Assembly (NCBI GenBank): GCA_903642225.1
Contig: CAHJWI010000002.1
Span: 1 to 64,000 of the forward strand
Length of the DNA: 64,000 bases
Source: Acidobacteriaceae bacterium
GTDB taxonomy: Bacteria; Acidobacteriota; Terriglobia; Terriglobales; Acidobacteriaceae
Direction: 5' to 3'
Made by a program: the position numbers and the translations under genes. The notes beneath the pieces were generated by a model. That model ran no database searches, was not told where the DNA came from, and was given only the letters and a program-made list of their open reading frames with translations. Within the stretch, counting starts at the first letter, position 1. Each line of letters begins with the position of its first letter. Positions 819 through 26,621 of this stretch are shown here, piece after piece.

Positions 819-2035
819 GCGGCCGGAGGCGTCGCCAGCTCCGCATTCGCCTCCGCAACATCACGCCGCAGTTTGGGCCTGCCGCCACCCGAGGGAAAAT
901 ACCGCTTCAGCCGAAGGATCGGATTCTCAAACCACCTGAAGCTCGCCGCCGCAATCCCCACGAGAATCCCCAGCAGCCACACGTACGACCCAACAAACGC
1001 AAGCCCGCTCGAGTGCGTCGTCCGTTGAATCTGGAGATACGCCGGCTCCAGGACAGGCCCGCGCAGCAACGGATGTAGCAGGTAAATGCCGTAGCTGTAC
1101 TGCCCAAACATGCGCATCACCGGCCACCGCAGTACTCGCTCACACACGCTGCCCCGTTCCAGCGACCACCCGATCAGCCCGCACGCCGTCACCGCCAGCA
1201 CCGTGTACCCGGCCGTGCTGATCCATGGGTCGTTTGGCGAAAAGCCGTGCGACCGTACAAGATACCCTCCCAGCACCGCCACTCCAGCACCCAGTACGGC
1301 CGGCGACCACCGCAACACCGCTGCCCGTTCCGGCCCCCGTATCAGCATCGCCAGTGCCGAGCCCAGCAGGAGCCCGTCCAGGTGCGTCGGCGTCCATGTG
1401 TACACATTCACGCTGTGCACAAACCCGATCAACTGCACAGCTGTGCGGAACGCTGTGAACCCCACGCACAGCCCCACCGCCCCCCAAAGTATCCGCAACC
1501 GTGACCGCAGCAGAAACACCACCACCGGCCACACAAAATAGAACTGCTCCTCCATGTTCAACGACCACAGATGTCCCAGAAACAGCCACGGCGCACCGAT
1601 AAACTCCGGCGGCTGCCTCCACCAATTGCTCACATGCGCCAGCACCGGCAGCAGCCGCCCGCCAAACCACGGGTACCCCTGCGCCACCCCGATCAGCAGT
1701 AGAGCACCCACAAATAGGTAGTACAGCGGCAGAATGCGCAGCGCCCGCCGCGCATAGAAGTTTCTGAAAAACCTCGGCGTCCCCAGCGTATCGAACAGGA
1801 TCCCGGTAATCAGAAACCCCGACAATGCAAAGAACAGGTCCACACCGATCCAGCCCGTATCGATCGCGTCATACACCAGCCGCGACGCAAACGCGCTGTC
1901 CGACGCGTGCGGACGCGAGAGCAGGTGCCGCGCCATCACAATGAGCAGCGCCAGCCCGCGCACACCGTCCAGCGCAGGCAGGTGCTTGCCCGTGGTGCTT
2001 TCGTCAAATCGCGTAGCGGTAGCGGCAGAAATCAT
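815..2035 (-). CDS. Acyltransferase family 3 membrane protein
   Basis: 406-residue polytopic membrane acyltransferase of the OafA/NodX family. The N-terminus has LDGVRGLALLIVMARH (the catalytic Arg/His spacing), then GVDLFFALSGFLITG, FRNFYARRALRILPLYY, and MEEQFYFVWP near residue 165. About ten hydrophobic helices are visible. It lies 26 bases downstream of the ThyX-like gene and overlaps the next acyltransferase by 4 bases, so the three probably form one minus-strand operon. The paralogue at 1-818 shares long runs of identical residues (for example WTP..LDGLLLG). A role in LPS O-antigen or other surface-glycan acylation is likely from the family, but the substrate is unknown. Confidence 0.9.
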   Translation of the reverse strand: MISAATATRFDESTTGKHLPALDGVRGLALLIVMARHLLSRPHASDSAFASRLVYDAIDTGWIGVDLFFALSGFLITGILFDTLGTPRFFRNFYARRALRILPLYYLFVGALLLIGVAQGYPWFGGRLLPVLAHVSNWWRQPPEFIGAPWLFLGHLWSLNMEEQFYFVWPVVVFLLRSRLRILWGAVGLCVGFTAFRTAVQLIGFVHSVNVYTWTPTHLDGLLLGSALAMLIRGPERAAVLRWSPAVLGAGVAVLGGYLVRSHGFSPNDPWISTAGYTVLAVTACGLIGWSLERGSVCERVLRWPVMRMFGQYSYGIYLLHPLLRGPVLEPAYLQIQRTTHSSGLAFVGSYVWLLGILVGIAAASFRWFENPILRLKRYFPSGGGRPKLRRDVAEANAELATPPAA

Positions 2036-2061
2036 TCAGTCCTTGCGAACAGGAAAGGGAA

Positions 2062-3783
2062 CTAGCGCCGAAGCAAATCAATCGGCGCACTCGGATCTGA
2101 CATTCGAAAGTGCGCCGCAAGCGCAGGATGCCGCCGAGCCACGGCCTGGTACATCTGCCAGGCCACGTTGCGGTAGCTCCAGTGCCCGGCCGGCGTGCTG
2201 CGCAGCTCGCTCATGTACACGGCCTGCGCAAAATCCATGCTGAACAACGACCGGCATCGCGTCGCCAGCGGCAGCAGGTAATCAGCACTTTGAACCGCGC
2301 CCTGTGCAGCCTTCCGCCCAGCCATCGGCAGCGGCTCACCCCATGCCATCTGCACTCCGTCCGCACCGAACACCGGCACCGGCACAGCTGCGGCAGAGTA
2401 TGCGCCCAGCGTCGGTCCGGCACTCTCCGCACCTCCACAAAGCTGCCCATGCGCCACTCGCGCCGCCTCAATCGCCGCCGCATATTCCGCCCCAACCCGC
2501 GACCCGGACACCGCAGGCTGCCCCGAAAAGTCCGGCGTCTCAAACCCATGCACCGTCGTATACCCCTGCAACAGCTGCACGCATCTCCGATGCCGATGCA
2601 TATCCCGAAATCCGCCGATATCCATCAAAATGTCGAACCGCAAACCACCCGCCGCCGCAAACGCACGCGGCAACTCGTCATGCCGTCCACGGTGCTCCGT
2701 CCCCAGCCCCACCAGCTCAACAATCCGGCTCTCCGTCAACCCCGCCACCGCCGTCCGGATCTGCGCATACCGATAGTGCGTGTGTGGATACAGCAGCGAC
2801 GTCGCAAGATCGATCTCCAGCGACATCCGCTCTCCCGCCGGCACCTCCACCAATTCCACATTTGGCGACCCCGCAGGCATCGGCTCAATCGCCGCGTCCC
2901 CCATCAGCGCACGCGCAGCCTCGGTCAACGCCATACGGCTCTCCCGCGCAAACTCACTCGGAGCGGTATATTTCACCAGCGTCGGCGACACGTGCACCGG
3001 CCGCAGCAGATGCTCCTGCAGCGCCTCGCCCAACCCTGCATCCACCGCCGCCGCACGCTCCACCAGCGCCTCCGTCGCAGCCGTCGCCGGGCTCCAGGCC
3101 ACCCCCGCCGCCGCCGCACGCAGCTTCTCACCAAGCTCCCGCACCTCAGCGTAATCGCTGCCCAGCAACCGCGAAATCTGCCCCTCCAGCGTCCGCGCAT
3201 TTGAGATCTGCCCCAGCGATGTATTCGTCGCCAGCGGCAACAGGTACCGCGCCATGTCAAACGCCCGAGCCTTCAGCGTCCGCCCGTACGCCGCCTCATC
3301 CATCGCCGCGGGCCGCGGCACGGCATCCTTCAACTCCTCCAGCATGCCCGCCGCAACATTTTGATACGCATCGAAAAGCCGCCCAGCCGTTGCCGAAAAG
3401 AGCGTCGCATCCGCCGCGCCCGCAAACGCCGGCGTATAGAAACCCGACTTCCGAAAATCCTGGTACCGCGTGCTGCGCTCCTGCCCATCCCAGCGCGGTT
3501 CGTCCACCAACGCAATCGCCGCCAGCAGGCTCAGCCGCTCCACGGCAAACGCCACATGCGCCAGGTCCGCAATCGACCGGTGCCCATACTGAAAATAAAA
3601 CGTACTCAAAAACTGCTCGGCCCGTTGCGCGCTGATCTCCTTCAGGCTCTCCCGCAACGTCAGCGAACTCCGCGAATACTTCGCCATCGCATACGCTAGC
3701 ACCTCCGGGTCCGCCCCGTGGATGGCATACACCTCCGTCGAAATCCCCGCCGCATTCATGTCGGCAACCGGCAACTCAGGCAT
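2062..3783 (-). CDS. Two-domain ThyX-like (FAD-dependent thymidylate synthase family) protein
   Basis: 573 residues, more than twice the roughly 220-250 of ordinary ThyX, because it holds two ThyX-like halves. Half 1 (about 15-225) has FYFQYGHRSIADLAHVAF, a VDEPRWDG run and ERSTRY at 102-107. Half 2 (about 315-560) has RDMHRHRR at 393-400 and a C-terminal MSELRSTPAGHWSYR. The classical ThyX signature is RHRxxSxNExSxRY. Here the RHR part is seen only in half 2 and the SxRY part only in half 1. ThyX makes dTMP from dUMP using FAD and methylene-THF. Whether this protein does so is uncertain, and it may be a diverged paralogue. It is first gene of the operon with the two acyltransferases. Confidence 0.82.
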   Translation of the reverse strand: MPELPVADMNAAGISTEVYAIHGADPEVLAYAMAKYSRSSLTLRESLKEISAQRAEQFLSTFYFQYGHRSIADLAHVAFAVERLSLLAAIALVDEPRWDGQERSTRYQDFRKSGFYTPAFAGAADATLFSATAGRLFDAYQNVAAGMLEELKDAVPRPAAMDEAAYGRTLKARAFDMARYLLPLATNTSLGQISNARTLEGQISRLLGSDYAEVRELGEKLRAAAAGVAWSPATAATEALVERAAAVDAGLGEALQEHLLRPVHVSPTLVKYTAPSEFARESRMALTEAARALMGDAAIEPMPAGSPNVELVEVPAGERMSLEIDLATSLLYPHTHYRYAQIRTAVAGLTESRIVELVGLGTEHRGRHDELPRAFAAAGGLRFDILMDIGGFRDMHRHRRCVQLLQGYTTVHGFETPDFSGQPAVSGSRVGAEYAAAIEAARVAHGQLCGGAESAGPTLGAYSAAAVPVPVFGADGVQMAWGEPLPMAGRKAAQGAVQSADYLLPLATRCRSLFSMDFAQAVYMSELRSTPAGHWSYRNVAWQMYQAVARRHPALAAHFRMSDPSAPIDLLRR

Positions 3784-3884
3784 GCCAAAAGCATACCGCG
3801 ACCGCTGCGGCGATATCGCGACCTCCGCGGTGAGCCGCGAACGATATCAGCCCGCCCCGCAAATACTGCAGCATCTAACCACAC

Positions 3885-4664
3885 GTGACCGACCACCCCG
3901 ACCCATCCCTCCTCCAAACCACCCACCGCCCCTGGCCCATGCCCACCCGCCCGTGGCGTCTCCGCCAGCGCTGGTCCAAACTCCTCTTCGCCCACTGGCC
4001 CGTCCCGGCATCAGACGTCCAGCGCCGCCTCCCCGCCGGCCTCCGCGTCGACACCCACGACGGCTGGGCCTGGCTCGGCGTCGTCCCCTTCCTTATGGAC
4101 CAGGTCCGCTTCCGCACCCTCGGCGAACACTCCATCGGCGTCCCCACCGCCACCGCTTTCCCCGAGCTCAACCTCCGCACCTACGTTCTCGCGCCAGACG
4201 GCCGAGCCGGCGTTTACTTCTTCTCGCTCGACGCCTCCTCCCTCCTCGCCGTCCTCGGCGCACGCATCGCTTTCGGCCTCCCCTACTTTTACGCCCGCAT
4301 GTCCATGCAGCAGCAGGGCAGTGAACTCCACTACACCTCCCGTCGACCGCAAGGGCCGCCCGCCCTCTTCGACGCCCGCTACCGCTCCCTCAACACACCC
4401 AGCCCGCAAGACAGCCTGCGAGAGTTCCTCACCGCCCGCTACGCCTTCTTTACCCGCCGCTTCGGCCACGTCCAGGCAGGCGAAATCCATCACGCCCCCT
4501 GGCACCTCGAAAACGCCGAAGCCGAGTTCACCACCAACCAGCTCCCCGCCAGCTTCGGCTTCACCCTCCCCAACCGCCCACCCATCCTCCACTACGCCCC
4601 AGAAGTCCACATGCAGGCCTGGACCGTCCGTCGCGTTTCCCCAACTCACCCGCCGCCCAGCTAA
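3885..4664 (+). CDS. YqjF family protein (DUF2071)
   Basis: 259-residue soluble protein of the DUF2071/YqjF family (named from Bacillus yqjF; biochemical function unknown). The region LLFAHWPVPASDVQRRLP and the following GWAWLGVVPF are the family's hallmark N-terminal block, and FPELNLRTYV and GVYFFSLDA follow. The start used is GTG at 3885. An in-frame ATG 18 codons later (MPTRPW) is an alternative that keeps the whole domain. It is divergent from the ThyX-like gene, with 101 bases between them for both promoters, and is followed by the peptidase after 42 bases. Third positions are almost all C, as in the other plus-strand genes up to 8.1 kb. Confidence 0.85.
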   Translation: MTDHPDPSLLQTTHRPWPMPTRPWRLRQRWSKLLFAHWPVPASDVQRRLPAGLRVDTHDGWAWLGVVPFLMDQVRFRTLGEHSIGVPTATAFPELNLRTYVLAPDGRAGVYFFSLDASSLLAVLGARIAFGLPYFYARMSMQQQGSELHYTSRRPQGPPALFDARYRSLNTPSPQDSLREFLTARYAFFTRRFGHVQAGEIHHAPWHLENAEAEFTTNQLPASFGFTLPNRPPILHYAPEVHMQAWTVRRVSPTHPPPS

Positions 4665-4706
4665 ACTACTCAGGCAAACGCACAACGCCACCGCTGGAGC
4701 CACCTG

Positions 4707-6373
4707 ATGAGCCGCCTCGCCCGCCTAGCCCTCGCCGCATCCCTGCTCGCGTCCGCCCTCCACGCCCAGCAGTTCGCACCTCTCCCCGCCGGTGCCCAGG
4801 CCGAAGCCGCCTCTATCGACCCAGAGCGCCTCCGCGCCTCCGTAAAGCAGCTCTCGAGCAACCAGTTCGAAGGCCGAGGCCCCGGCCAGCCCGGTGGCAT
4901 CCTCGCCACCAATTTCATCGCAGACGCCTTCCGCTCCTACGGCCTCCAGCCCGCTGGCGACAACGGTACGTTTCTGCAAGCGGTGCCTCTCGTCGGCGTC
5001 CAGACCGTCGCCGCGGAGACACACTTCCACTTCATTCCAGGCCCCGGCTCCAAAACCACCACGCCCACTGACCTTACCTTCGGCCCCGACTTCGTCGTCA
5101 ACAACCAGACTCACACCGACAAATCCACCCTCGACGTCCCCCTCGTCTTCGTCGGCCACGGCATCGTCGCGCCGGAATACCACTGGGACGACTACGCCGG
5201 CATCGACGTCAAGGGCAAGGCCGTCGTCATCGTCGTCAACGAACCACCCTCCACCGATGCAAATTTCTTCAAAGGCGAAGCCCTCACCTACTACGGCCGC
5301 TGGACCTATAAGTTTGAAGAAGCCGGCCGCCACGGTGCCGTCGCCGCCCTCATCATCCACCGCACAGACCTCGCCAGCTACGGCTGGCCCGTGGTCCAGA
5401 ACAGCTGGTCCGGCGAGCACAGCTACCTGCGCGGCGACCCCAATGCCCGCCTCACCGCCGCCTCCTGGATCCAGCACTCCGTCGCCGACCAACTCCTCAG
5501 CTCCGTCGGGCTCACCGCCGATCAGGCCATCAACGAGTCCAACAAGCGCACCTTCAAAGCCTTCGATCTCCCCGTTCAGCTCAAGGCTGAAATCGTAAGC
5601 AACATCCGCAACTACGACTCCGCGAACATCGTCGGCAAGGTTGCAGGAGTCCAGCCCGGCAACGCCGTCCTCTACACCGGCCATTGGGATCACTTCGGCA
5701 TCGATCGCACCCGCAAGGGCGATCCCGTCTTCCACGGCGCTGCCGACAACGCAACCGGCTCCGCCATGTCATGGAACTCGCCCGCGCCTTCGCCGAAAAG
5801 AAAGCCACCCCGCCCCACGACGTTTACTTCGCCGCCGTCACCGCAGAAGAGCAGGGCCTGCTCGGCTCGCAATACCTCGGCGAGCACCCACCCACATCCG
5901 CAAAAAACATCTCCCTGGACCTAAACTTCGACGATCTCGCACCCATCGGCGATGTACGCTCCGGCACAGTCCACGGCGCAGAGCGCACCACCGTCTATCC
6001 CCTCGTCGAAGCCCTCGCCAAACAGGACGGCCTCGCCCTTCAAGGAGATGCCTTCCCCATGGCCGGCCACTTCTACCGCTCCGACCACTTCTCCCTCGCG
6101 CGCGTCGGCATCCCCGCCTTCTCCATCGGCGAAGGCACCCTCTTCCGCAACCATGACGATGCGTGGGGCAAGCAGCAGGCCGACGACTACACCGCCCACC
6201 GCTACCACACCCCCGCGGACATCTACGAACCATCCATGGACTTCAGCGGCAACGCACGCATGGCCCGCTTCGGCTTCGAACTCGGCTGGCAAATCCTCTC
6301 TCAACCCGCCAAAGTCGAGTGGCTTAAAGGCGACGAATTCGAACGCGCGCGCAAACAGAGCGAAGGTCAGTAG
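4707..6373 (+). pseudogene. M28 family metallopeptidase with PA domain, single-base frameshift
   Basis: Exported zinc aminopeptidase of family M28. Frame one begins at ATG 4707 (GGAG 8 bases upstream) with a signal peptide (LALAASLLASALHAQ), then a PA-type insert (VFVGHGIVAPEYHWDDYAG) and the metal motifs TGHWDHFG and GAADNATGSA. At about 5766-5770 the family motif breaks: frame one goes to a junk tail ending at 5924, while MELARAFAE, AVTAEEQGLLGS and YRSDHFS continue in the -1 frame to 6373. One missing base (reading ATG-GTC-ATG) would restore about 556 residues. The sequence does not distinguish true inactivation, a -1 shift in translation, or a sequencing error. The stop lies 2 bases before coaD. 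Confidence 0.85.
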
Positions 6374-6375
6374 CC

Positions 6376-6897
6376 ATGCCGGCCATCCGCGCCATCTACC
6401 CCGGCACCTTTGACCCGCCTACCAACGGCCACCTTGACGTTGTCACTCGCGGAGCCCGTCTTTTCGACTCCCTCGTCGTCGCAGTCTTAAAAAACTCCAG
6501 CAAAGGCAAGCCCCTCTTCACCACTGAAGAGCGCGCCGAAATGCTCACAGAAATCACCGCTCCCATCGGCAACGTCACCGTCGCCACCTTCGACGGCCTT
6601 CTCGTCGATTTTGCCCGCCAGCAATCCGCCACTGCCGTCATCCGAGGCATCCGCGCCGTCTCCGACTACGAGTACGAGTTCCAGATGGCCATGATGAACC
6701 GCCATCTCGACCCCAACCTCGAAACCGTCTTCCTTCAGCCCGCCGAGCAGTACACCTATGTCTCCTCCCGCCTCATCAAGGGCGTCTTCCAGCTCGGCGG
6801 CGACATCAGCACCCTTGTTCCACCGGTTGTTATGAAGCGCCTCCACGCAAAGACTCCCGCCGCCCTTACCACCCCAGAAAGCGGCGCCAGCACCTAA
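6376..6897 (+). CDS. coaD: Phosphopantetheine adenylyltransferase
   Basis: Cytoplasmic CoaD, the fourth step of coenzyme A synthesis: ATP plus 4'-phosphopantetheine gives dephospho-CoA and PPi. The 173-residue product has the nucleotidyltransferase motif IYPGTFDPPTNGHLD near the N-terminus (the T/HxGH signature), VIRGIRAVSDYEYEFQMA around residue 90, and YTYVSSRLIKGV, the ISSTxVR-like motif of the family. Length is slightly over the usual 160 because of a short alanine/threonine-rich tail. The ATG is 2 bases after the peptidase stop, so it is probably co-transcribed with it. This essential gene appears intact. Confidence 0.97.
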   Translation: MPAIRAIYPGTFDPPTNGHLDVVTRGARLFDSLVVAVLKNSSKGKPLFTTEERAEMLTEITAPIGNVTVATFDGLLVDFARQQSATAVIRGIRAVSDYEYEFQMAMMNRHLDPNLETVFLQPAEQYTYVSSRLIKGVFQLGGDISTLVPPVVMKRLHAKTPAALTTPESGAST

Positions 6898-6944
6898 CTT
6901 GCCGTGCCATCACCGCACCTGCTTGTGTATCGTGATCTCACCGC

Positions 6945-8105
6945 ATGAACGACACAGCCGCAAAGCTCAAGCCCAAACAGCACTTTGAAATCCTCGACGG
7001 CCTCCGCGGCGTCGCCGCCATGATGGTCGTCATCTTCCACACCTTCGAGGCGTGGAACGGCGGCAGCGCCTTCCGCCAGATTATCAATCACGGCTATATG
7101 GCCGTGGACTTCTTCTTCCTGCTCTCCGGCTTCGTCGTCGCCTACGCCTACGACGACCGTTGGCGCTCGCCCGCGAAGCCCAACGGCATGTCCATCGTCG
7201 ACTTTTTCAAGCGGCGCATCATCCGCCTGCAGCCCATGGTCATCATGGGCAACATCATCGGCGCGCTCCTCTTTTATCCCGCCGCTGGCAAACTCTTCCC
7301 GCTTATCGCCGCCACTCCCGTGTGGCAGGTCATCCTCACCATGCTCGTCGGCTTCACCCTCCTCCCGCTGCCCATCTCGATGGACATCCGCGGCTGGGAT
7401 GAAATGCACCCGCTTGACGGCCCCGCCTGGTCCCTCTTCTTTGAGTACATCGCCAACATTGCCTACGCCCTCGGCCTTCGCAAGGCCTCCAACCGCGTCC
7501 TCGGCATCCTCACTGCCCTCGCCGCCGTCTTCCTCATTCACTTGCTCCTCACCGGCACCCGCGGCGACGTCATTGGCGGCTGGTCCATCGACGCCCTTGA
7601 ACTTCACGTTGGCTTCGCCCGCCTGCTGTTTCCGTTCATGGCTGGCATGCTCCTCATGCGCCTCGGCAAGCGCATCCACGTCCGCAACGCGTTCTTCTGG
7701 TGCAGCCTCCTGCTGATCGTCACCTTCAGCCTGCCCCGCTTCGGTGGACTAACAACCCTCTGGAAAAACGGCCTCTACGAAGCCTTCTGCATCATCGTCG
7801 TCTTCCCGATCATCGTCGCCATGGGTGCCGGCGACCAGATCACCGGCCGCATCGCCACCCGCCTGTGCAAGTTCTCCGGCGAGATCTCGTACCCGCTTTA
7901 CATCACCCACTACCCGCTCATCTACATCTACACGGCCTACGTCGTCGCCGGCCGCTTTACGGTCCTCCAGGGCTACCTCTGGGGAGCTGCTCTCTTCGTC
8001 GCCGCCGTCACCGTCGCCTACGCCTGCCTCAAGCTCTACGACGAACCCCTCCGCCGCTGGCTTAACCGCCGCTTCCTCGTCACCGGCACCTCCACCGCGC
8101 GGTAG
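6945..8105 (+). CDS. Acyltransferase family 3 membrane protein
   Basis: 386-residue polytopic membrane acyltransferase, the third of this family in the window but a different subfamily from the tandem pair at 1-2035. It has LDGLRGVAAMMVVIFH at the N-terminus (Arg and His of the active site), MAVDFFFLLSGFVVAYAYDD, FFKRRIIRLQP, and GPAWSLFFEYIAN, where the others have EEQFY. FSGEISYPLYITHYPL near the C-terminus is a family signature. The ATG at 6945 has no clear Shine-Dalgarno. It is the last gene before the GC-skew switch and still shows C-rich third positions. Substrate is unknown; sugar O-acylation is the usual activity. Confidence 0.9.
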   Translation: MNDTAAKLKPKQHFEILDGLRGVAAMMVVIFHTFEAWNGGSAFRQIINHGYMAVDFFFLLSGFVVAYAYDDRWRSPAKPNGMSIVDFFKRRIIRLQPMVIMGNIIGALLFYPAAGKLFPLIAATPVWQVILTMLVGFTLLPLPISMDIRGWDEMHPLDGPAWSLFFEYIANIAYALGLRKASNRVLGILTALAAVFLIHLLLTGTRGDVIGGWSIDALELHVGFARLLFPFMAGMLLMRLGKRIHVRNAFFWCSLLLIVTFSLPRFGGLTTLWKNGLYEAFCIIVVFPIIVAMGAGDQITGRIATRLCKFSGEISYPLYITHYPLIYIYTAYVVAGRFTVLQGYLWGAALFVAAVTVAYACLKLYDEPLRRWLNRRFLVTGTSTAR

Positions 8106-8222
8106 CCACAGCATCTAACGTTGTAATTCGCTCCATTGTCAGTGCTTGCGCAATGCAGCCGCCTGCAGCCTACGCGCAGAGAATTTTTGAGATTCCAGTA
8201 TTGTTGGCCGCGGCTTTGATAG

Positions 8223-8423
8223 CGCCAGAGATGTTTTGGTCAGACCGCGCAGAACACCAGTGCTGCGGAGCACGAACGCAGCGACAGCAACCCCGGAGAG
8301 ACGATTGCGGGCATTGTCGCGGGTGTTCCGTCGCAGGCTCAGCCGATCGTTGAACGATCGTTGGTTGTGAAGAGCAAGGCACCGGCACGAAGGTCAGTTT
8401 TACCGCTGGTAAACTTCAGATGA
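8223..8423 (+). pseudogene. Possible gene remnant, no start codon
   Basis: An open frame of 66 codons between two stops, without a usable start, reads like protein in its second half (NPGETIAGIVAGVP, IVERSLVVKSKAP). I do not recognise a family. It may be the end of a gene lost in a rearrangement, or chance. Confidence 0.22.
8344..8360. repeat. Perfect palindrome CGATCGTTGAACGATCG
   Basis: Two 8-base arms (CGATCGTT and AACGATCG) flank a single central G. It sits 133 bases before the aminotransferase start. It could be an operator or a recombination site; it has no T-run, so it is not an obvious terminator. Confidence 0.5.
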
Positions 8424-8492
8424 GCGGCTGTGCGGAGAACGCACGTTGCTGCCGGGGCGACGCTTAAACGGCCTCGCCAGGAATACCAAATC

Positions 8493-9677
8493 ATGGCCAC
8501 AATGACTGACGCGCAAGCTCTTGCTGCACCAATTCCCATGCTCGACCTGGGGCGGCAATACGACGCCTTGGGCGCGGAGATCGAGGCGGCTGTCTTAGAG
8601 GTGTGCCGCGCCGGCAGGTTCGTGCTGGGGCGCGAGGTGGGGGAATTCGAGCGGGCGGTTGAGCGGAGGTACGGCGTTGGTGCGGCGGTCAGTTGTGCGA
8701 GCGGCACGGATGCGCTTTGGCTAGCGATGGCGGCGGTCGGAGTCGGGCCAGGGCATGCGGTGGTGACGACACCGTTTTCATTTTTTGCGACGGCGAGCAG
8801 CATTCTGCGGGCGGGTGCAACGCCGGTGTTTGCGGATATCGATCCGGTGAGCTTCAACCTGAGCGCGGCCGCTGTGGATTCGACGATTGCGGAGCGCATA
8901 CAGAAGGACGTACGCGCTGTATTGCCGGTTCACCTGTACGGGCAGTGCGCGGACTGGGACAGCTTTGCGGGGCTTGCAGCGCAGCACGACCTGCTGTTGG
9001 TAGAGGATGCGGCGCAGGCGTTTGGCGCGGAGTGGAACGGTGTGCCCGCGGGTGCGTTGGGAGACAGTGCTGCCTTTTCGTTTTACCCCACGAAGAACCT
9101 GAGCGCGTGGGGCGATGCTGGGCTGACGACGACGCGGACCGCCGAGGCTGGCGAACTAGCGAACGCTTTGCGAGCGCACGGGATGAGGCGGCGGTACTAC
9201 CACGATGAGGTGGGCTGGAACAGCCGACTGGACACGATGCAAGCGGCTGTACTGCTGGTGAAACTTGGGCATATAGAGCGATGGAACAAGAAAAGACAAG
9301 GCGTTGCCGCGCGGTATACGGAGTTGTTTATGGATGCAGGTCTTGCCGTGGAGTCGGGCACAGCTCCGAGGGATAGCCGGCTGGTGTTGCCGGTAGCGGA
9401 CGCGCGGGCGACGCATGTGTGGCACCAGTACGTTGTGCGTGCGCAGCGGCGGGACGAGCTGCGGGCGTACCTGACAGCGCGCGGGATCGGGAGTGAGGTG
9501 TACTACCCGGTGCCGCTGCACATGCAGGAGGCGCTGCGTGGTTTGGGATATCGCAAGGGGCAGTTTCCGGAGAGCGAACGTGCAGCGCGCGAGGTGCTTG
9601 CGCTGCCCATTTATCCGGAGCTGCGGGACGAGGAGCAGGTGCGGGTGGTGGAAACGATTGCTGACTTTCTGCGGTAA
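8493..9677 (+). CDS. DegT/DnrJ/EryC1/StrS family PLP aminotransferase
   Basis: Sugar aminotransferase using PLP (394 residues from ATG 8493). An in-frame GTG at 8430 would add 21 unlikely residues, whereas AGGA lies about 10 bases before 8493. Motifs in order: [12 protein letters not shown] at the N-terminus, [31 protein letters not shown], and [14 protein letters not shown] with the PLP lysine. The family moves an amino group from glutamate to a keto-sugar. Its stop overlaps the kdsA ATG (TAATG) and kdsD follows, so it probably acts on a Kdo-pathway or LPS sugar. A role like KdnA (8-amino-Kdo) is a hypothesis only, since no KdnB partner is seen here. Confidence 0.9.
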
Positions 9678-10582
9678 TGCCGTACGTGAGCTGGCGCGGT
9701 AGCATGAACACGATGCAAGAAGCGATGGGGACAGCACCGAAGAACCGCGATGTCCATGTGGGCGATGTTGTTTTTTCAAATACTCGACCGCTAACGTTGA
9801 TTGCGGGACCGTGCCAGATGGAGAGCTGTGCGCATGCGCTGGAGACGGCCAGTGCGCTGAAGGAGATCGCGGCTGCGGTGGGCATTGGACTGGTGTACAA
9901 GAGCAGCTTCGACAAGGCGAACCGAACCAGCGGGGGTGCGCAACGGGGCATCGGGCTGGAGGCGTCGCTGCCGATCTTTGCGGAGATTCGCGAGACGCTC
10001 GGGTTGCCGGTGCTGACGGATGTGCACGAGAGCGGGCAGTGTGCGCGGATGGCGGAGGCCGTGGATGTGCTGCAGATTCCGGCGTTCCTTTGCCGGCAGA
10101 CGGACCTGCTGCTGGCGGCTGCGGAGACCGGACGCGCCGTGAATGTAAAGAAGGGGCAGTTCCTGTCGCCGCTGGATATGAACAACGTGGCGGGGAAGCT
10201 GAGCGGTGCTGCCGGTGGTGTGCTGCTGACCGAGCGTGGAACAAGCTTTGGGTACAACACGCTGGTGAGCGATATGCGTGCGCTGCCGATCATGGAGGCG
10301 ACCGGGCATCCGGTGATCTTTGACGCAACCCACAGCGTGCAGCAGCCCGGCGGACTGGGGGGCGCGAGCGGCGGGCAACGAGAGTTTGTGCCGGTGCTGG
10401 CGCGGGCCGCGGTGAGCGTGGGTGTGGCGGGTGTGTTCATCGAGACGCATGCGGACCCGGACCATGCGCCGAGCGACGGGCCGAACATGATGCCGCTGCG
10501 CAGCATGGAGGCGTTGCTGCGGGAGTTGATGGAGTTTGACGCGCTGGCCAAGCGGTATGCCGTTGCCGGGGTGAGTGCTTGA
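9677..10582 (+). CDS. kdsA: 3-deoxy-8-phosphooctulonate (Kdo-8-P) synthase
   Basis: Cytoplasmic aldolase joining arabinose-5-phosphate and PEP to give Kdo-8-phosphate for LPS. 301 residues from ATG 9677; internal ATGs at 9704 and 9713 are plausible starts, since the conserved part begins at [12 protein letters not shown]. The Cys of AGPCQMES sits where metal-dependent (Aquifex type) enzymes have their metal cysteine and E. coli has Asn, so this is probably the metal-dependent class. Other motifs are [43 protein letters not shown] and [15 protein letters not shown]. It overlaps the aminotransferase and kdsD genes, indicating one operon. Confidence 0.96.
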
Positions 10583-11586
10583 GCATCGCAGTGAAGGCGG
10601 AGTCTCGCGTCGCGGATGATGTTGCGTCTGCGGTGAGTACCGTGGGTTGCGAGCTGCGCGGGCTGGAGTCGTTGCGGGACGCGCTGGCGGGCAGTCTTGG
10701 CGAGGCGTTTTCAAAGGCAGTCAGCGTCCTGCAGAGCGCCAGCGGACGCGTGATTGTGACGGGTGTTGGCAAGAGTGGGCACGTGGCACGCAAGATTGCG
10801 GCTACGCTGGCGAGCACCGGCAAGCCTGCGCACTTCGTGCATCCGAGCGATGCGAGCCACGGCGACCTGGGCATGGTGCGGCCGGAGGATGCGGTGCTGG
10901 CGCTGAGCTGGAGCGGCGAGACCGCGGAGCTTGCGGACCTGATCGCATATACGCGGCGCTTTGGCGTGCCGCTGATTGCGAGTACGTCGCGCGCGGAGAG
11001 TACGCTGGCGCGGGCGGCGGACGTGGCCCTGGTGCTGCCGCAGACGGCGGAGGCGTGTCCGGATTCGCTGGCACCGACGACGAGCACAACGATGCAGCTG
11101 GCGATGGGCGATGCGCTGGCCGTGGCGCTGCTGGCGCGGCGAGGGTTCAGTGCGAATGAATTTCGAGACCTGCACCCCGGCGGTCGGCTGGGAGCGCGGC
11201 TGCGGCGGGTGGAAGACCTGATGCACAGCGGTGACGAGGTGCCAGTGGTGCAGGAGAATGCGACGCTGGCCGAAGCGATTGTGCGCATGACGAGCGGGCG
11301 CTTTGGGATTACGGGCGTGGTGGATTCAGCCGGAGCGCTTGTGGGCGTGATTACCGATGGCGACCTACGGCGGGTGTTTGAGCGCGGACTGACCGACGGA
11401 GTGGGCCGGCAACTGGCGCGGGAGACGATGGGTCGCAGTCCGCGAACAGTTGCACCGGGCGAGCTGGCCACGGCGGCGCTGGCGCGAATGCATGGGGAGC
11501 GGATTACGAGTCTGTTCGCGGTGGAGGATGGACGTGCGGTGGGGATTGTGCACATCCACGATCTGCTGCGGGCGGGGTTGGTTTAG
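10579..11586 (+). CDS. kdsD: D-arabinose-5-phosphate isomerase (SIS plus two CBS domains)
   Basis: Converts ribulose-5-phosphate to arabinose-5-phosphate, the KdsA substrate. 335 residues with a TTG start at 10579 in a TTGA overlap with the kdsA stop; GTG 10591 is an alternative. The SIS domain (about 35-175) shows [33 protein letters not shown] and [10 protein letters not shown]. The linker [11 protein letters not shown] is typical of KdsD/GutQ. Two CBS domains fill about 205-335 ([20 protein letters not shown]). It is last gene of the aminotransferase-kdsA-kdsD unit and converges on the DUF1697 gene, with the two ends overlapping. Confidence 0.95.
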
Positions 11587-12162
11587 GTGGTTGCCATCCT
11601 GACGAGCTTTGCGACGGTGTAGAGGTTGCGGATTGTGGCGGGAGCTTGCCGAGCGGGAGTTTTAGTTTGGATTTGCCCATGCCTTCTGGTAGTGGATGTA
11701 GAGCTCGCGGGTGCCGGCGGTTCCCTGCTCGCCCGCGGGGCCGGTAAAGATCCGGGCTACGGCTGGTGGTGCCGCGGCGAGGAAAGCGATGTGAACCTTG
11801 TTGGGCTCGCCGTGCGGGAAAGGGTTGGCGGCGAGGATGGAGCGCAGCTCCTCGGCGGTGCGGACCATGACGTCGACGGGCTTGCCCATGTGGGTGTGCA
11901 GGGCCTGTTGCAGCGCATGCAGGACGGCGGCTTCATCGAGGTTTGATTCAAAGACGACGTTGCCGCTCTGGATGTAGGTGCGGGGATTGGTGAAGCCGAG
12001 AGCGACGCAGAGGGTCTTGAGGTCGGCCATGGCTAGCTTGCCGATGCCGCCGACGTTGATAGCGCGGAGCAGGGCGATGTAGGTCGTGCGCGGGCCTTGC
12101 TTGCTCGGGCGTTCGCTGCGCGGGAATTTGGTGCGCGGGGCGTCATTTACGGGGCTAGGCAC
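11583..12162 (-). pseudogene. DUF1697 family protein with two apparent frameshifts near the C-terminus
   Basis: The body (TTYIALLRAINVGG, TYIQSGNVVFES, ANPFPHGEPNKVHIAFL) is a clear DUF1697 protein of unknown function. A GTG at 12162 overlapping the kdsC stop is the best start. The frame runs into a stop at 11662 after HYQKAWANPN. The family's GxGRSKL motif is present one frame away (KGMGKSKLKLPLGKLP). Its terminal TxRNxxTVxKL motif appears in the third frame (TIRNLYTVAKLVRM), ending at 11583. Two single-base losses would explain this. If only the first frame is used, the CDS is 11662-12162 (166 residues). Decay and sequencing error are both possible. Confidence 0.7.
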
Positions 12163-12721
12163 GGGCGAGGGGGATGGCCTGTTGCCAGCGGCCCTGGGCC
12201 TTGAGGATGAGTTCGACGACTTCGCGTGCGGTGCCTTTGCCGCCGGGTGCGGTGGTGATGTAGTGGGCGACGGCTTTGAGCTCGTCGCAGCCATCGGCAA
12301 CGGAGACGGCGAGGCCGGCGCGGCGGGCGACGGGGATGTCGGGCAGGTCGTCGCCCATGTAGGCGATCTCGTCTTCGGTGACGCCGGCGGCGAGCATGCA
12401 GGCGGTGAAGGCGGCGTCCTTTTCTTTCTGGCCGAGGTGGATGTAGTCGACGTGGAGCTCGTGGGCTCGCTGGGTGACGGCGGGCGAGGTGCGGCCGGTG
12501 ATCCAGCCGGTTTTTATGCCCATGGTGTGGGCGAGCGAAAGGCCAGGGCCGTCCTTGGCGCTGAAGATCTTCAGCTCGTCCACGGTGTCGTCAGATCCCG
12601 CGCGAAGGCCGGCGATGAGGCCGATGCCGCCGTCGGTGAGCGTGCCGTCGACGTCCATGAGAAAGAGCTTGATGCGGCGGGCGCGGGTGAGGAGGTCGTC
12701 TTGCGGGATGGTGGCGGGCAT
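12155..12721 (-). CDS. kdsC: 3-deoxy-D-manno-octulosonate 8-phosphate phosphatase (HAD family)
   Basis: 188-residue HAD phosphatase removing the phosphate from Kdo-8-P to give Kdo, the step after KdsA. The HAD nucleophile motif LFLMDVDGTLTDGGIGLI lies near residue 20, WITGRTSPAV follows, and the C-terminal GDDLPDIPVARRAGLAVSVAD and TAPGGKGTAREVVELIL are typical KdsC. It is on the opposite strand from kdsA and kdsD but within 600 bases, so the pathway's genes are grouped though split between two transcripts. CMP-Kdo synthetase (kdsB) is not in the window. Confidence 0.94.
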   Translation of the reverse strand: MPATIPQDDLLTRARRIKLFLMDVDGTLTDGGIGLIAGLRAGSDDTVDELKIFSAKDGPGLSLAHTMGIKTGWITGRTSPAVTQRAHELHVDYIHLGQKEKDAAFTACMLAAGVTEDEIAYMGDDLPDIPVARRAGLAVSVADGCDELKAVAHYITTAPGGKGTAREVVELILKAQGRWQQAIPLARA

Positions 12722-12768
12722 GTGGGTTCACACGCCTGAAGACGGCTCGTAGTCGTCCTGCTGGATTA

Positions 12769-14391
12769 TCAAAGAGCTCGCATATAGGAAATAGCAGTGC
12801 TGGCTTGTACGACGAGGTAAGTCCCTGGCAGGACAAGCCGGGTGGCGGCTCGATCTGCGCTGCGTTGGTATACGCGTGCGGTGATGACAACTCGATTGCC
12901 AATAAAGATTTCAAGAACGGAATGATCGATCAAGACTCGCACCTTCACGCTTTCCGGGAGCGGCTCGTTGAGTGATACGTCCTGGCCATTAAACGAGATG
13001 GATGTGCGCGTGGCGTCTGAAGCGAGCTCTAGAAAGTAGAGGCCATTCGCCCCGATCTGCACGGGAGGGGGATTTCCTCCGATTCGCTGCAAGTGGAACG
13101 TGGTGTCAGTCTGGTACTCGACTGCGACGGGTCCACTATGTGCGAGGGCTGCGTTGATAGAAGGGTAACGAAGCAGATCAACTTCAGGTGCCGGGGCGAA
13201 GCGGGCTTCGCCGTTGCTGTCGAGCGTCATGATGCGGGGGAGGCTCATGCAGCCGGACCAGCCGTGCTTTGTCATTTCGGCTTCGGTCCAGTCTTCGGGG
13301 ATCCAGCCCCAGAGGATGCGGTTGCCGTGGGCGTCGAGCTGGGTCTTGGGGGCGTAGTAGGGTCCGTGGTTGAGGACGCCTTCTTTTTCCGCAGTCCACT
13401 TCATGGTGCGTTTGTCGAGCGTGCCGGACTGCCACATTGTCTTGCGGCCTTTGAGGGTGCCGGCGGAGTGGATGAGGACGTGCTTTCCTCCGAGCGGGAA
13501 GAAGTCGGGGCATTCCCAGGTTTCGCCGCTGTCGACGGTGTCGTCGGTTTGTTTGCCGGTGGGTTTGCCCGCGGCGAAGATGCCCTGGTACTGCCACTGG
13601 CGCAGGTCAGGGGACTTGTAGAGCAGGACGTTTCCGCCGATTCCCTTCTGGCCGCTGGCAAGAAGCATGTAGTAGGTGCCGTCGTCCTCGCGCCAAGGCA
13701 CGGGGTCGCGGAAGCCGGTGACCCTCATGTCGGGAGGCGGCGATGGGATGACGGGCTTGTCGCTCTTGTCCCAGGTGTCGAGCGCGGCATCCTTTAAGCC
13801 TTCGAGTTCGGCTGCGGAGGGGGCGCGGCCGTTGACCGTGTTGTTGGCGGCGGCGGAGTTGGCCGGCGTGGCAATGCACTGGGCTTCGCGCTCGGGCGGG
13901 TGGCTATTCCAGAGGGTCGCTTGCTCGGGCGTGGAGGGCGCGACGCAGGTGTAGAGGATGGTGGGAATGCGCTTGCTGTGCGCCTCGTCGAAGACCATGG
14001 TGCCGGTGAAGACGCCGAAGCTGTCGGGTCCGCCGGGGGTGCGTTCGAGAGCTACGGGACGGAGCGTCCAATGGACCATGTCTTTCGAGACAGCGTGGGC
14101 CCAGCTCATGTTTCCCCAGACGCTGCCGTTGGGGTTGTTCTGGAAGAAGAGGTGGTAACGGCCGTTGAAGTAGACGGGGGCGCAGGGGTCGTTCATCCAG
14201 CCATGGACGGGGGCCAGGTGGTAACGGGGACGCAGAGCGTCTGCGTCGATCTGGGATTGCGGGGGGAAGCCACCGTTGGGGCCGGGTGTGGGCTGCTGGG
14301 CAAAGGCGAAGCGCGGAAGAACAGCTGATGCACTTGCGGTAACCCCGGCCATGCCAAGGCCGTGTAAAAGTCTACGTCGAGTTACTGTCAT
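12769..14391 (-). CDS. Glycoside hydrolase family 32 (beta-fructofuranosidase/levanase type), Tat-exported
   Basis: Exported enzyme that hydrolyses fructose linkages in sucrose, levan or inulin. 540 residues; the N-terminus TRRRLLHGLGMAGVTASASA is a twin-arginine signal. GH32 catalytic motifs are all present: WMNDPC at 65-70 (nucleophile D68), FRDP at 227-230, and WECPDFF at 292-298 with the acid/base E293. A C-terminal beta-sandwich follows from about residue 400. The start has a strong TAGGAGAG upstream. Which fructan is cut cannot be decided. About 25 bases separate it from the small membrane protein gene upstream, suggesting co-transcription with it and the permease. Confidence 0.93.
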   Translation of the reverse strand: MTVTRRRLLHGLGMAGVTASASAVLPRFAFAQQPTPGPNGGFPPQSQIDADALRPRYHLAPVHGWMNDPCAPVYFNGRYHLFFQNNPNGSVWGNMSWAHAVSKDMVHWTLRPVALERTPGGPDSFGVFTGTMVFDEAHSKRIPTILYTCVAPSTPEQATLWNSHPPEREAQCIATPANSAAANNTVNGRAPSAAELEGLKDAALDTWDKSDKPVIPSPPPDMRVTGFRDPVPWREDDGTYYMLLASGQKGIGGNVLLYKSPDLRQWQYQGIFAAGKPTGKQTDDTVDSGETWECPDFFPLGGKHVLIHSAGTLKGRKTMWQSGTLDKRTMKWTAEKEGVLNHGPYYAPKTQLDAHGNRILWGWIPEDWTEAEMTKHGWSGCMSLPRIMTLDSNGEARFAPAPEVDLLRYPSINAALAHSGPVAVEYQTDTTFHLQRIGGNPPPVQIGANGLYFLELASDATRTSISFNGQDVSLNEPLPESVKVRVLIDHSVLEIFIGNRVVITARVYQRSADRAATRLVLPGTYLVVQASTAISYMRAL

Positions 14392-14416
14392 TACACTCTC
14401 CTACGGTCACCAGTAT

Positions 14417-14683
14417 CTACTCCCTATCAGACGCCAAGCGCCGAAAGATAAGGTAGAGGGCGGCTGCCAGCGTTGCATAAAACAATCCGTCCAGTGGTGC
14501 AATGGCTCCCAGGATGACAGGCCACGACCAAGGAGTCTTGAAGAGGTTGCTGACAGGGCATAGAAGGTCCATGAGTAAGTCGAAATAGGTCGTCCTGCTC
14601 GAAATGAAGCCGACGCCGAACGTAGCAAGGTAGCCCACTGCAAAGGCAATCACAAAGATGCGTGCGATGGCGCGAGTCTGCAT
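14417..14683 (-). CDS. Small hypothetical membrane protein
   Basis: 88-residue protein (ATG at 14681-14683) that I do not recognise. It has a hydrophobic helix at about 7-27 (ARIFVIAFAVGYLATFGVG) and another at about 53-80 (WPVILGAIAPLDGLFYATLA), with a basic C-terminus (RRLASDRE). It starts 5 bases after the amino-acid permease stop and ends 25 bases before GH32, so it is probably in that operon. Coding character is supported by the position and by the amphipathic and hydrophobic pattern. Confidence 0.65.
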   Translation of the reverse strand: MQTRAIARIFVIAFAVGYLATFGVGFISSRTTYFDLLMDLLCPVSNLFKTPWSWPVILGAIAPLDGLFYATLAAALYLIFRRLASDRE

Positions 14684-14688
14684 CGAGG

Positions 14689-16284
14689 TTACCGCTGGCC
14701 GGCGAACTCGCTGCGGTGGCGGCTGTAAAAGAAGTAGACGAACAAGCCGATGACGAGCCAGATGAAGAAGCGCTCCCAGGTGCGGATGGGAAGACCGGTC
14801 ATGAGCAGGATGCAGAAGACGATGGAGAGCGTGGGGATGACTGGACCGAAGGGAACGCGGAAGCCGCGGCGGCGCTCGGGCTGATGCTTGCGCAGGACCA
14901 TGACGCCGATGGAGACGAGAACAAAGGCGAAGAGGGTACCGATGTTGGAGAGCTCGGCGAGGGTACCGACGTCGAAAAGACCGGCGGGGATGGCGACGAG
15001 GACGCCGGCGACCCATGTGGCAAAAGCTGGCGTGCGATAGACGGGATGGACGCGGGAAAAGATGTCCGGCAGCAGCCTGTCGCGGGACATGGCGAACCAG
15101 ACGCGCGCCTGGCCGAGTTGGAAGACGAGGATGGACGAGATCATGCCGACGATGGCGCCGATGAGGACGACGAGTCGGACGTAATGGAGCTTGACCGAGT
15201 GGGTTTCGAGCGAGAGGCGCTTGAGGGCGTTGACGACCGGCGCTCCATCGCCCGCAACGGAGTTCCAGGGAACGATGCCGGTAAGCACGAGCGCTACGCC
15301 GATATAGAGGATGGTGCAGATGATGAGCGTGGCGATGATGCCGATGGGGACATCCCGCTGCGGGGTCTTGCATTCCTCGCTTGCGGTCGAGACAGAGTCG
15401 AAGCCGATATAGGTGAAGAAGATGATGGAGCCACCGGCGAGCACACCGGCATAACCGTTGGGCGAGAACGGCACGTAATAGTTGGGGTGAAGAAAAGAGA
15501 CGCCGGCGAAGACGAAGATGAGGATGGCCATGACTTTGACCAGCACCATGATGTTGTTGGTGCGTGCCGACTCTGAAATGCCGCGGACGAGAACGAAAGT
15601 GAGGAGGATTACGACGAGGAAGGCCGGGATGTTGAAGCCGAAATGCCAGCCCGACTTGAAGATGTCGTGGCCGGCGAGGTCCTGCAAGCCGAGGGGCAGG
15701 AACGCAGGGGACAACCACTTGGGATCGAGCCGGATGCCGAGCCAGTCGAGCAGGTCGACGACGTGCGCGGCGAAACCGACGGACACGCTCATGTTGGAGA
15801 AGGCGTACTCGAGGATGAGATCCCAGCCGATGATCCAGGCGACGAGCTCGCCGAGCGTTGCGTAAGTATAGGTGTAGGCGGAGCCGGCGATAGGAATCAT
15901 GCTGCTTAGCTCGGCGTAGCAGAGGCCGGTGAAGCAACAGACGATGGCAACCAGAATCATGGACAGCGCCAAAGCGGGACCGGCACCTGGACGCCCTGCT
16001 ACAGCGCCATGATGCAGGACGAAGTCGATAACCGGCGAATCCCAGAAAGTGGCAGTCGTTGCTGGATTTCCGGCTATAGCCGTTCCAATCACGGTAAAGA
16101 TACCTGATCCTATGACTGCTCCGACACCGAGCGCCGTGAGGGAGAACGGTCCCAATGTCTTCTTCAGTGCTGTTTTCGGCTGCTCTGATTCGGCGATCAG
16201 CTTATCAATCGACTTTGTTTGAAAGATCTGTCGGGGCAGCGGCGTGTCCTCGGGAGAAGTTCTGAGATTGCGTGTGGGAACCAT
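14689..16284 (-). CDS. APC superfamily amino acid permease (cationic amino acid transporter-like)
   Basis: 531-residue inner-membrane permease importing amino acids, probably by cation symport. The N-terminal cytoplasmic stretch (RQIFQTKSIDKLIAESE) followed by LGVGAVIGSGIFTVIG is characteristic of the CAT/YfnA branch. FTYIGFDSVSTASEECKTPQRD (TM6-loop region, read from about residue 245) and RVWFAMSRDRLLPDIFSRVHP are further family signatures. About twelve to fourteen helices are visible. The gene is divergent from the GH130-like gene with only 61 bases between starts. Downstream it is linked with a small membrane protein and GH32. Substrate is not predictable from sequence alone. Confidence 0.92.
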   Translation of the reverse strand: MVPTRNLRTSPEDTPLPRQIFQTKSIDKLIAESEQPKTALKKTLGPFSLTALGVGAVIGSGIFTVIGTAIAGNPATTATFWDSPVIDFVLHHGAVAGRPGAGPALALSMILVAIVCCFTGLCYAELSSMIPIAGSAYTYTYATLGELVAWIIGWDLILEYAFSNMSVSVGFAAHVVDLLDWLGIRLDPKWLSPAFLPLGLQDLAGHDIFKSGWHFGFNIPAFLVVILLTFVLVRGISESARTNNIMVLVKVMAILIFVFAGVSFLHPNYYVPFSPNGYAGVLAGGSIIFFTYIGFDSVSTASEECKTPQRDVPIGIIATLIICTILYIGVALVLTGIVPWNSVAGDGAPVVNALKRLSLETHSVKLHYVRLVVLIGAIVGMISSILVFQLGQARVWFAMSRDRLLPDIFSRVHPVYRTPAFATWVAGVLVAIPAGLFDVGTLAELSNIGTLFAFVLVSIGVMVLRKHQPERRRGFRVPFGPVIPTLSIVFCILLMTGLPIRTWERFFIWLVIGLFVYFFYSRHRSEFAGQR

Positions 16285-16345
16285 CGTAGTTTAGCGTGTT
16301 GCGGCAACGTAAATAGCACGACTTGCGGTCTGGAAGGTAATTGAG

Positions 16346-17593
16346 ATGGAAGCGGCAACAGTGGAGGGGGCGCATTGGCAGCGACGCCGCAATGGCAGAA
16401 GGCGAAGGCACCTCGGGTTGGGCATGCGCTTTGCCTTGGGATGGTGTGCTCTGCTGGGGCTGCTCGGCGTTCTGGTGACGCGGGGGCAACAGCCGGACCG
16501 GATCACTCTTACGTCGAAAGGATTTGCGCCGCTGATCATTCCCTTGCAATCGCAATGGGAGCTGGGGCCCTGGACGCGCGCGTTACAGCAGCCCGTGATC
16601 ATGCCGAACGCCTCTTCGGTATTCACCGATCCGGTGTCGGGCGCGCCGGTGCACTGGGAGGCGCTGCACACGTTCAATCCGGCGGCGGTCGTGCGCGATG
16701 GCAAGGTGTTCGTGCTGTACCGTGCGGAGGATGATAGTGGAGCGATGGCAATTGGCGGTCACGTGTCACGACTGGGTCTGGCAGTAAGCGCGGACGGGAC
16801 GCATTTCGACCGCATGCCGCAGCCGGTGTTTTATCCCGCCAAGGACGCACAGCAAAGCCGCGAGTCACCGGGTGGTGTGGAAGATCCGCGGCTGGTGGAA
16901 CGGCCCGAGGGCGGGTATGTGCTGACGTACACGCAGTGGTCGCGGACGAGGGACTCCTACTCTGTAGGGATTGCCACGAGTGACGACCTGGTGCACTGGC
17001 AAAAGCGGGGACCTGCATTTCTCGGCGCACTTGGTGGACGCTACGATGCGCTGAAGTACAAATCCGCGGGGATCGTGACGCGTCGAGCCGGCGAGAAGTT
17101 GGTTGCTGCGAGGATCAACGGCAGGTACTGGATGTACTGGGGCGAAATTCACGTGGGGCTTGCGACGAGCGAAGACCTGGTCCACTGGACTCCCGTGGAG
17201 GATGCACCGAGCAAAACAAAGGTGCTGCTGGAAGCTCGGCAGGGCATGGCGGACAGTGCGTTTCCAGAGACGGGTCCGCCGCCGTTACTGACAGCGGGCG
17301 GCATTGTGATGCTGTACAACGCCAAGAACGCTGAAGGTTTAGGAGGCGTTGCCGGGCTACAGCCGGGGACCTACTCCGTGGAAGAGGCCCTGTTTGCAGC
17401 GGATGCGCCGGGGACCATGCTGGCTCGAACGAAGCAGCCGGTGTTCCAGCCGGAGTTGCCGTTTGAGAAGAGCGGTCAGTACGCTGCCGGAACCACGTTT
17501 GCTGAAGGTCTGGTGTGGTTCAAAGGGAAGTGGTGGATGTACTACGGGTGCGCGGACAGCTTTGTAGGCGTGGCTACAGCACCGGCACACTAG
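16346..17593 (+). CDS. GH130-like glycosidase/phosphorylase, membrane-anchored or exported
   Basis: 415 residues. The start at 16346 has GGAAGG 8 bases upstream; an ATG at 16424 just before the hydrophobic segment (LGWCALLGLLGVLV) is an alternative. The mature part is a five-bladed propeller resembling GH130 (mannoside phosphorylases and beta-mannosidases): FNPAAVVRDGKVFVLYRAED near residue 110 and GGVEDPRLV near 175 carry the characteristic Asn and EDPR. GLATSEDLVHW and VMLYNAKNAEG follow. Because it appears exported, hydrolysis is more likely than phosphorolysis, but this is inference. A strong hairpin terminator follows 15 bases after the stop. Confidence 0.85.
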   Translation: MEAATVEGAHWQRRRNGRRRRHLGLGMRFALGWCALLGLLGVLVTRGQQPDRITLTSKGFAPLIIPLQSQWELGPWTRALQQPVIMPNASSVFTDPVSGAPVHWEALHTFNPAAVVRDGKVFVLYRAEDDSGAMAIGGHVSRLGLAVSADGTHFDRMPQPVFYPAKDAQQSRESPGGVEDPRLVERPEGGYVLTYTQWSRTRDSYSVGIATSDDLVHWQKRGPAFLGALGGRYDALKYKSAGIVTRRAGEKLVAARINGRYWMYWGEIHVGLATSEDLVHWTPVEDAPSKTKVLLEARQGMADSAFPETGPPPLLTAGGIVMLYNAKNAEGLGGVAGLQPGTYSVEEALFAADAPGTMLARTKQPVFQPELPFEKSGQYAAGTTFAEGLVWFKGKWWMYYGCADSFVGVATAPAH

Positions 17594-17607
17594 AGGATTA
17601 TGAAATG

Positions 17608-17641
17608 ACAAGAACCCCACCTGTTCGGGTGGGGTTCTTGT
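17608..17641. terminator. 14-bp stem hairpin terminator, probably bidirectional
   Basis: Perfect 14-bp stem (ACAAGAACCCCACC with its complement) around a six-base loop, placed between the convergent GH130-like gene and the small basic protein gene. Confidence 0.85.
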
Positions 17642-17660
17642 CTACTTTCGTCGCCGCAAT

Positions 17661-17813
17661 CTACCGTTTGGTGGCGCCGCGCACAAGGCTCTTCAGCTTC
17701 TTCTTGTTGGAGCCGCGGGGAGTGGTGCGGGCGACCTTTGCGGGGGCGGCGGCGCGGGACTTGCGCTTGGCGGCCTTGCGCTCTTTGTGCTCGAGATTTT
17801 TGGTGTTTGCCAT
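17661..17813 (-). CDS. Tiny highly basic protein (50 residues)
   Basis: A 50-residue protein starting MANTKNLEHKERKAAKRK, with 18 Lys/Arg of 50. AGAGAAGAG lies just upstream of the ATG at 17811-17813. It resembles no family I can name. The composition (lysine-rich, alanine, no hydrophobic core) suggests a disordered nucleic-acid-binding or ribosome-associated protein; this is inference. It has its own position between the helicase gene and a terminator. A second small basic protein of similar character is at 27311-27514. Confidence 0.72.
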   Translation of the reverse strand: MANTKNLEHKERKAAKRKSRAAAPAKVARTTPRGSNKKKLKSLVRGATKR

Positions 17814-17880
17814 GTTGTTCTCTTCTCTTTGTTGCTTAAATTTGGGGTGATGTGAAAGCCTAGGGTGCACACGAGTCGCG

Positions 17881-21009: not shown

Positions 21010-21068
21010 TGGCTACTTGCTCCAGTACGTAGTTTACGACGTTCGTTCGCCCTGTCGCTTGCGGCGGC

Positions 21069-22395: not shown

Positions 22396-22416
22396 ACTGA
22401 TTGCGGCATCACACGA

Positions 22417-22454: not shown

Positions 22455-22502
22455 GCTGCTTTGGGATCGCGAGCGGTGGGACTGCACCGGTATGCTGCTG
22501 CT

Positions 22503-26599: not shown

Positions 26600-26621
26600 A
26601 GGGTTGCTGGCGGTAGAGCGA

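Follow-up and report, generated by a model that had tools for sequence, protein, structure and literature searches.

We find that the plus strand changes abruptly from C-rich to G-rich between positions 8106 and 8492 of the window, and our analysis suggests that this switch is probably a rearrangement junction, most likely one end of an inversion, in a strongly strand-asymmetric Terriglobus lineage. The window, that is the whole stretch of DNA analysed, comprises the opening 64 kb of contig C2 (184,129 bases) in an assembly of 3,656,062 bases in 62 contigs, and the source bacterium probably belongs to Terriglobus in the GTDB sense. Because conserved gene order is broken at the switch, genome reshuffling is a more likely cause than a replication origin. 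The features surrounding the junction are listed below.

1..8105, C-rich side: acyltransferases, thyX, DUF2071, M28 peptidase (frameshifted), coaD and acyltransferase-3 genes; raw skew -0.27
6376..6897, plus strand, coaD: CTP_transf_like (PF01467); fourfold skew -0.93
6945..8105, plus strand, acyltransferase-3 gene (PF01757): final gene before the junction on the left
8106..8492, junction interval: from the stop of the acyltransferase gene to the start of degT
8493..9677, plus strand, degT/dnrJ/eryC1 aminotransferase gene (PF01041): start picked by eye
9677..10582, plus strand, kdsA: DAHP_synth_1 (PF00793); fourfold skew +0.62
10579..11586, plus strand, kdsD-like gene: SIS and CBS domains; fourfold skew +0.57
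8493..57100, G-rich side: weaker at about 21-28 kb; ends in a drop at 57094-57477

Raw GC skew is -0.271 over positions 1-8105, +0.031 over 8106-8560, +0.223 over 8561-16500 and +0.212 over 8561-57000, and the lowest cumulative G-C value between 7000 and 10000 falls at position 8173. When the window was cut into 1-kb chunks and these were permuted 2000 times, the step of 0.485 between 8-kb halves was not reached anywhere in any permutation. By the contrast of neighbouring 4-kb halves (+0.527; sd 0.079) the switch ranks first among 13,832 positions, and it is also the top change-point, with a likelihood gain of 725; the next one (523) is downward and lies on contig C9. This ranking and the switch counts given below cover 1.56 of 3.66 Mb (43% of the assembly), and both the gene caller and the change-point code were custom-written. 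The change-point output flags the switch as intragenic solely on account of the last fourfold sites, which lie at the 3' end of the gene at 6945-8105; it is counted here as intergenic.

A preliminary description of this DNA had noticed the switch from counts in 60-base segments, and all five counts were exact on recount (3001-3060, 31 C and 13 G; 5101-5160, 28 C and 9 G; 7501-7560, 30 C and 9 G; 8701-8760, 29 G and 15 C; 13321-13380, 29 G and 12 C). It had also described the C-rich side as extending to about 8.1 kb in genes of both strands. This holds at fourfold sites, where GC skew left of the junction ranges from -0.70 to -0.93 in thyX on the minus strand as well as in DUF2071, M28, coaD and acyltransferase genes on the plus strand. 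Near the junction on the right the fourfold values range from +0.57 to +0.85, the genes of this side being degT, kdsA and kdsD on the plus strand and DUF1697, HAD-type hydrolase and GH32 on the minus strand. The description of the sequence as G-rich from about 8.55 kb onward is therefore correct for both gene strands but not beyond about 57.1 kb, where skew falls to -0.12. This fall is a second sharp switch of the window (57094-57477, from +0.68 to -0.12), and it likewise lies across an intergenic gap.

Agreement between the two gene strands extends well outside the window. By the final gene calls, skews of plus- and minus-strand genes in 135 windows of 10 kb are correlated with r = 0.88 (0.89 on C2, n = 17; 0.87 on C1, n = 23), and in sampled stretches r is 0.92 for this genome (n = 19), 0.95 for T. 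roseus (n = 19) and 0.90 for the relative G003 (n = 20). Since plus and minus genes agree, the asymmetry is a property of the DNA strand and not of transcription, and transcription-driven skew is thereby rejected. Of 152 windows of 10 kb, skew is strongly minus in 27, mildly minus in 26, flat in 41, mildly plus in 31 and strongly plus in 27. Coding-strand fourfold A/C/G/T frequencies are 0.094/0.627/0.160/0.120 in plus genes of C-rich blocks and 0.091/0.617/0.168/0.124 in minus genes of G-rich blocks. The two block types thus mirror each other within 0.011, which fits one strand-asymmetric process read in two orientations. Transitions and the purine/pyrimidine balance both shift between the block types; a bias made up of G-to-C transversions only (fourfold AT skew is about 0 here) was rejected, as twofold C/(C+T) in plus genes is 0.83 versus 0.59. 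In strong blocks genes do not favour the G-rich strand (190 of 382).

The conserved gene order broken at the switch is that of hfq and degT. The 14 genomes of the genus that were examined, out of 18, all carry hfq and hflX in divergent orientation directly upstream of degT. Among 75 named loci of the family, which have at least 1.2 kb of upstream sequence (5 of 80 were set aside) and overlap with the set of 14 relatives, hfq is found upstream of degT in 73 (exceptions L081 and L114) and hflX in 68, while coaD is present in none, with loci extending at most 10 kb to either side. In the window degT is instead preceded by coaD and the acyltransferase gene, and the adjacency to hfq is lost at 8106-8492. 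The comparison with relatives that the preliminary description had proposed as a check thus reveals broken synteny at the switch. Neighbour order across the genus is conserved in only 44 of 111 comparisons, so a broken neighbourhood alone would be weak evidence; the strength of the present case comes from the fact that hfq and degT have stayed together almost everywhere else examined. The junction interval itself is present in one copy in the genome, and alignment to the 14 relatives does not start until the coding region of degT (about position 8505).

The counterpart of the break is located on the same contig. In six of the 14 relatives (G001, G002, G006, G007, G009 and G010) the order is atp operon-hflX-hfq-degT. 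Here the atp-hflX-hfq part is undisturbed at C2:127103-136211, 118.6 kb from degT, and hfq-hflX (C2:127103-128950) lies on the plus strand, which is the orientation required of an inversion partner. Conserved DNA upstream of hfq extends to about 127032, and similarity on the degT side begins at the gene. The partner end is accordingly placed at C2:126858-127032, and re-inverting C2 from 8.4 to 127.0 kb brings back the divergent order of hfq and degT. However, no skew switch is present at the partner end (-0.26 on the left and -0.21 on the right; per-gene skews here and at the degT loci of relatives come from an earlier gene caller, which in skewed blocks assigned part of the genes to the wrong strand). 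Re-inversion merely shifts the discontinuity to the coaD side, the summed steps being about 1.38 before and after by our own arithmetic. The inversion that the preliminary description had offered as its second explanation is thus supported by the broken synteny at 8106-8492 but not by the composition of the partner end, and a single clean inversion does not explain the full pattern.

We therefore regard the junction as well supported at the degT end and less clean at the partner end. An event with ends at 8106-8492 and C2:126858-127032, which we infer to be an inversion, would have parted degT from its ancestral neighbour hfq and left it adjoining the coaD-acyltransferase pair. Segments of opposite strand composition would have been joined in this way, making the sign of the skew flip at the join, and the step itself would be inherited from the earlier orientation of these segments. 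An inversion mediated by repeats was considered and rejected, the longest exact match common to both ends being at most 9 bases. The hfq-hflX-atp block is headed by another acyltransferase gene (C2:125577-126857), so that members of the acyltransferase-3 family (PF01757) are present immediately left of both ends (the other at 6945-8105), in the same orientation.

The relative with the highest coaD identity (G015, 83%) carries M28, coaD and acyltransferase genes contiguously (L145), with a fourfold skew of only +0.02 to +0.07 there. Its degT gene has a skew of -0.05 (earlier gene caller) and still adjoins hfq. Because G015 has hfq-degT and lacks the step, both the step and the break would postdate the split between the two lineages, or else have been lost in G015. 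The M28 region of L145 is a single frame. In the window the M28 peptidase gene (4707-6373) is broken by a frameshift near 5.7 kb, with both overlapping frames matching Peptidase_M28, and it may represent a pseudogene or a sequencing error.

In circular bacterial chromosomes the skew minimum lies at oriC, and the sign and the sharpness of the step in the window are alike to that. No upward step in the 1.56 Mb read is stronger. Even so, it is highly improbable that the window contains the chromosome replication origin, which had been the first explanation of the preliminary description and is not supported by our analysis. The dnaA gene is located at 141 kb of another contig (C1), inside a G-rich block and with no switch beside it. 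Exact matches to TTWTNCACA, the single consensus tried, number 3 in 64 kb versus 2.0 expected, which is chance level, and none lies within 9 kb of the switch, the nearest being at 17.9 kb; the earlier remark that neither a dnaA gene nor a clear DnaA box is near is thus correct. Moreover, change-point switches of at least 0.6 number 21 in 1.56 Mb, 12 up and 9 down (9 and 6, respectively, among the sign-changing ones), so the minus-to-plus change is not unique to the window. Unlike an oriC, the site has no dnaA close by, no cluster of DnaA boxes and many fellow switches of both signs, and the widely kept adjacency of hfq and degT is broken exactly at it. A chimeric assembly, in which 8 kb of other DNA was joined at a contig end, is also very unlikely, although the assembly is split into 62 contigs and the C-rich side of the switch makes up no more than the initial 8.1 kb of one of them. 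Misjoins usually occur at repeats, whereas the junction DNA has a single genomic copy. Elsewhere in the genome, too, C-rich and G-rich blocks are mirror images of each other. The loss of the adjacency is also evident, independently, from the hfq side, which lies 118.6 kb away within the contig. A part played by mobile DNA appears unlikely: there is no tRNA in the window and no plasmid match at 7000-10000, and housekeeping genes are present on both sides.

Judging from the kind of asymmetry, the skew may be caused by replication. In the two finished relatives, agreement between skew and replication arm was assessed in 22 pieces each (20 stretches and the two halves of a chosen 40-kb degT region), assuming a terminus opposite dnaA. 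On this assumption 13 pieces match, 6 are contrary and 3 weak in T. roseus (13 of 19 non-weak, one-sided p 0.08), and 10 match, 7 are contrary and 5 weak in G003 (10 of 17 non-weak, one-sided p 0.32). Skew thus follows the arms as a weak, non-significant tendency. An apparent excess of sharp upward switches was dropped: the early count of 12 up and 4 down (sign-changing, at least 0.7), taken from the first 0.84 Mb and 0.44 Mb of each of two relatives with the C2 rows at 3.7 and 5.7 kb omitted as products of gene calls on the wrong strand, faded with more sequence and an improved gene caller. In this genome and two relatives together, up and down switches now number 16 versus 11 (p 0.44).

Several switches are located inside intact genes. 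In atpA (C2:131960-132041), 5 kb beyond the partner end and within an intact ATP synthase operon, fourfold skew changes from minus to plus (-0.32 to +0.38), a change matched in 0 of 5000 within-gene shuffles. The same holds for a dnaJ-family gene of T. roseus (L178:10832-11036, 0 of 5000), a finished genome. The degT gene of G003 (L048 and L049), also a finished genome, has an internal minus-to-plus switch (13 of 5000) with hfq-degT synteny intact; that of G014 is weak (206 of 5000), and in G008 the change-point method gave no degT switch, the gene means alone moving from -0.22 (hflX) to +0.24 (degT). Further intragenic cases of this genome lie at C1:234265-235722 (2 of 5000), on C7 (10) and on C30 (49), and at C2:100256-100792 (Fisher p 0.017, uncorrected for the choice of split), and those of relatives in T. 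roseus (L172, 10 of 5000) and G003 (L205, 5 of 5000). One on C6 was unsupported (2055 of 5000). Because they lie within intact genes, such switches cannot be inversion ends, and a cause other than inversion is required for some polarity changes.

Exchange between lineages is our first guess for these intragenic switches. Extended to all sharp switches, that of the window included, it would make them the edges of segments homologously exchanged from relatives with reversed arms, gene order being left unchanged. This would explain why switches occur within intact genes in draft and finished genomes alike, and why degT skew differs despite a shared hfq-degT order (T. roseus -0.72, G005 -0.15, G003 +0.23, all by the earlier gene caller). 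It nevertheless appears unlikely as a general account. At the window site gene order is altered, so exchange is unnecessary there, and at atpA the genes on both sides are closest to G001 among the six relatives compared, so no foreign segment is visible. Opposite skews could also be produced by a local strand-specific process in or upstream of degT, such as ectopic initiation or a recurrent break site. In a separate clade the skew also turns from minus to plus at the degT start with synteny intact (G003, weakly G014, and G008 by gene means only). We consider such a process improbable, since the gene means of the other 11 relatives examined reveal no degT switch of this kind and an origin-like process should favour sharp upward switches, while up and down switches do not differ significantly.

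A junction of this sort, in a genome with strong skew and much rearrangement, is of a known kind. Local reversal of skew serves both for calling inverted genes and for locating origins, and an excerpt of the article 'Gene inversion potentiates bacterial evolvability and virulence' (PMC6220195) takes it as a direct indication of physical inversion. The inverted segments in that excerpt show a stretch of reversed skew beside normal skew, as here; in contrast to them, the present blocks measure tens of kilobases, the skew is very strong and the break is backed by gene order. The rule, as the excerpt gives it, would not predict switches inside intact genes. The window switch fits this rule in part, and the atpA and dnaJ-family switches argue that it is incomplete. 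It is possible, though we hold it only tentatively, that the tens-of-kilobase skew domains of Terriglobus are set or moved by a cause other than inversion, such as lineage exchange or local reversals of replication direction, in which case local skew reversal would no longer be direct proof of physical inversion. Both uses can be tested in this genus, where skew is very strong (fourfold values of up to 0.9) and sharp switches are numerous, and the intragenic switches may be the most interesting part and worth following.

A study of radiation-resistant species and their relatives explains gene-order change largely by inversions, as we propose here, and 'Acidobacter' and 'Terriglobus' do not occur in its main text. 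In the T. saanensis paper, GC skew is mentioned solely in a figure legend. Among the titles and abstract openings listed for GC skew with Acidobacteria, Terriglobus and inversions, none treats skew blocks of the genus.

Four switches within the 1.56 Mb read have a step of at least 1.0, and each of these largest ones lies across an intergenic gap. In the very large ones at C7:14261-15216 and C9:47462-48154 the gaps resemble, by eye, decayed gene remnants. On C5, at about 113 kb, a large switch ahead of pgk likewise leaves an old neighbourhood behind. Among the 17 loci of relatives that include upstream sequence, 9 have a GAPDH gene at most 1.5 kb upstream of pgk (one of these GAPDH genes was verified by Pfam), and the remaining loci have a common different neighbour (6 of 17), an acyltransferase gene (1 of 17) or neither in the stretch covered (1 of 17). 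Here the GAPDH gene is located on contig C30, apart from pgk. A homologue of the acyltransferase gene at 6945-8105 is present upstream of pgk in G006.
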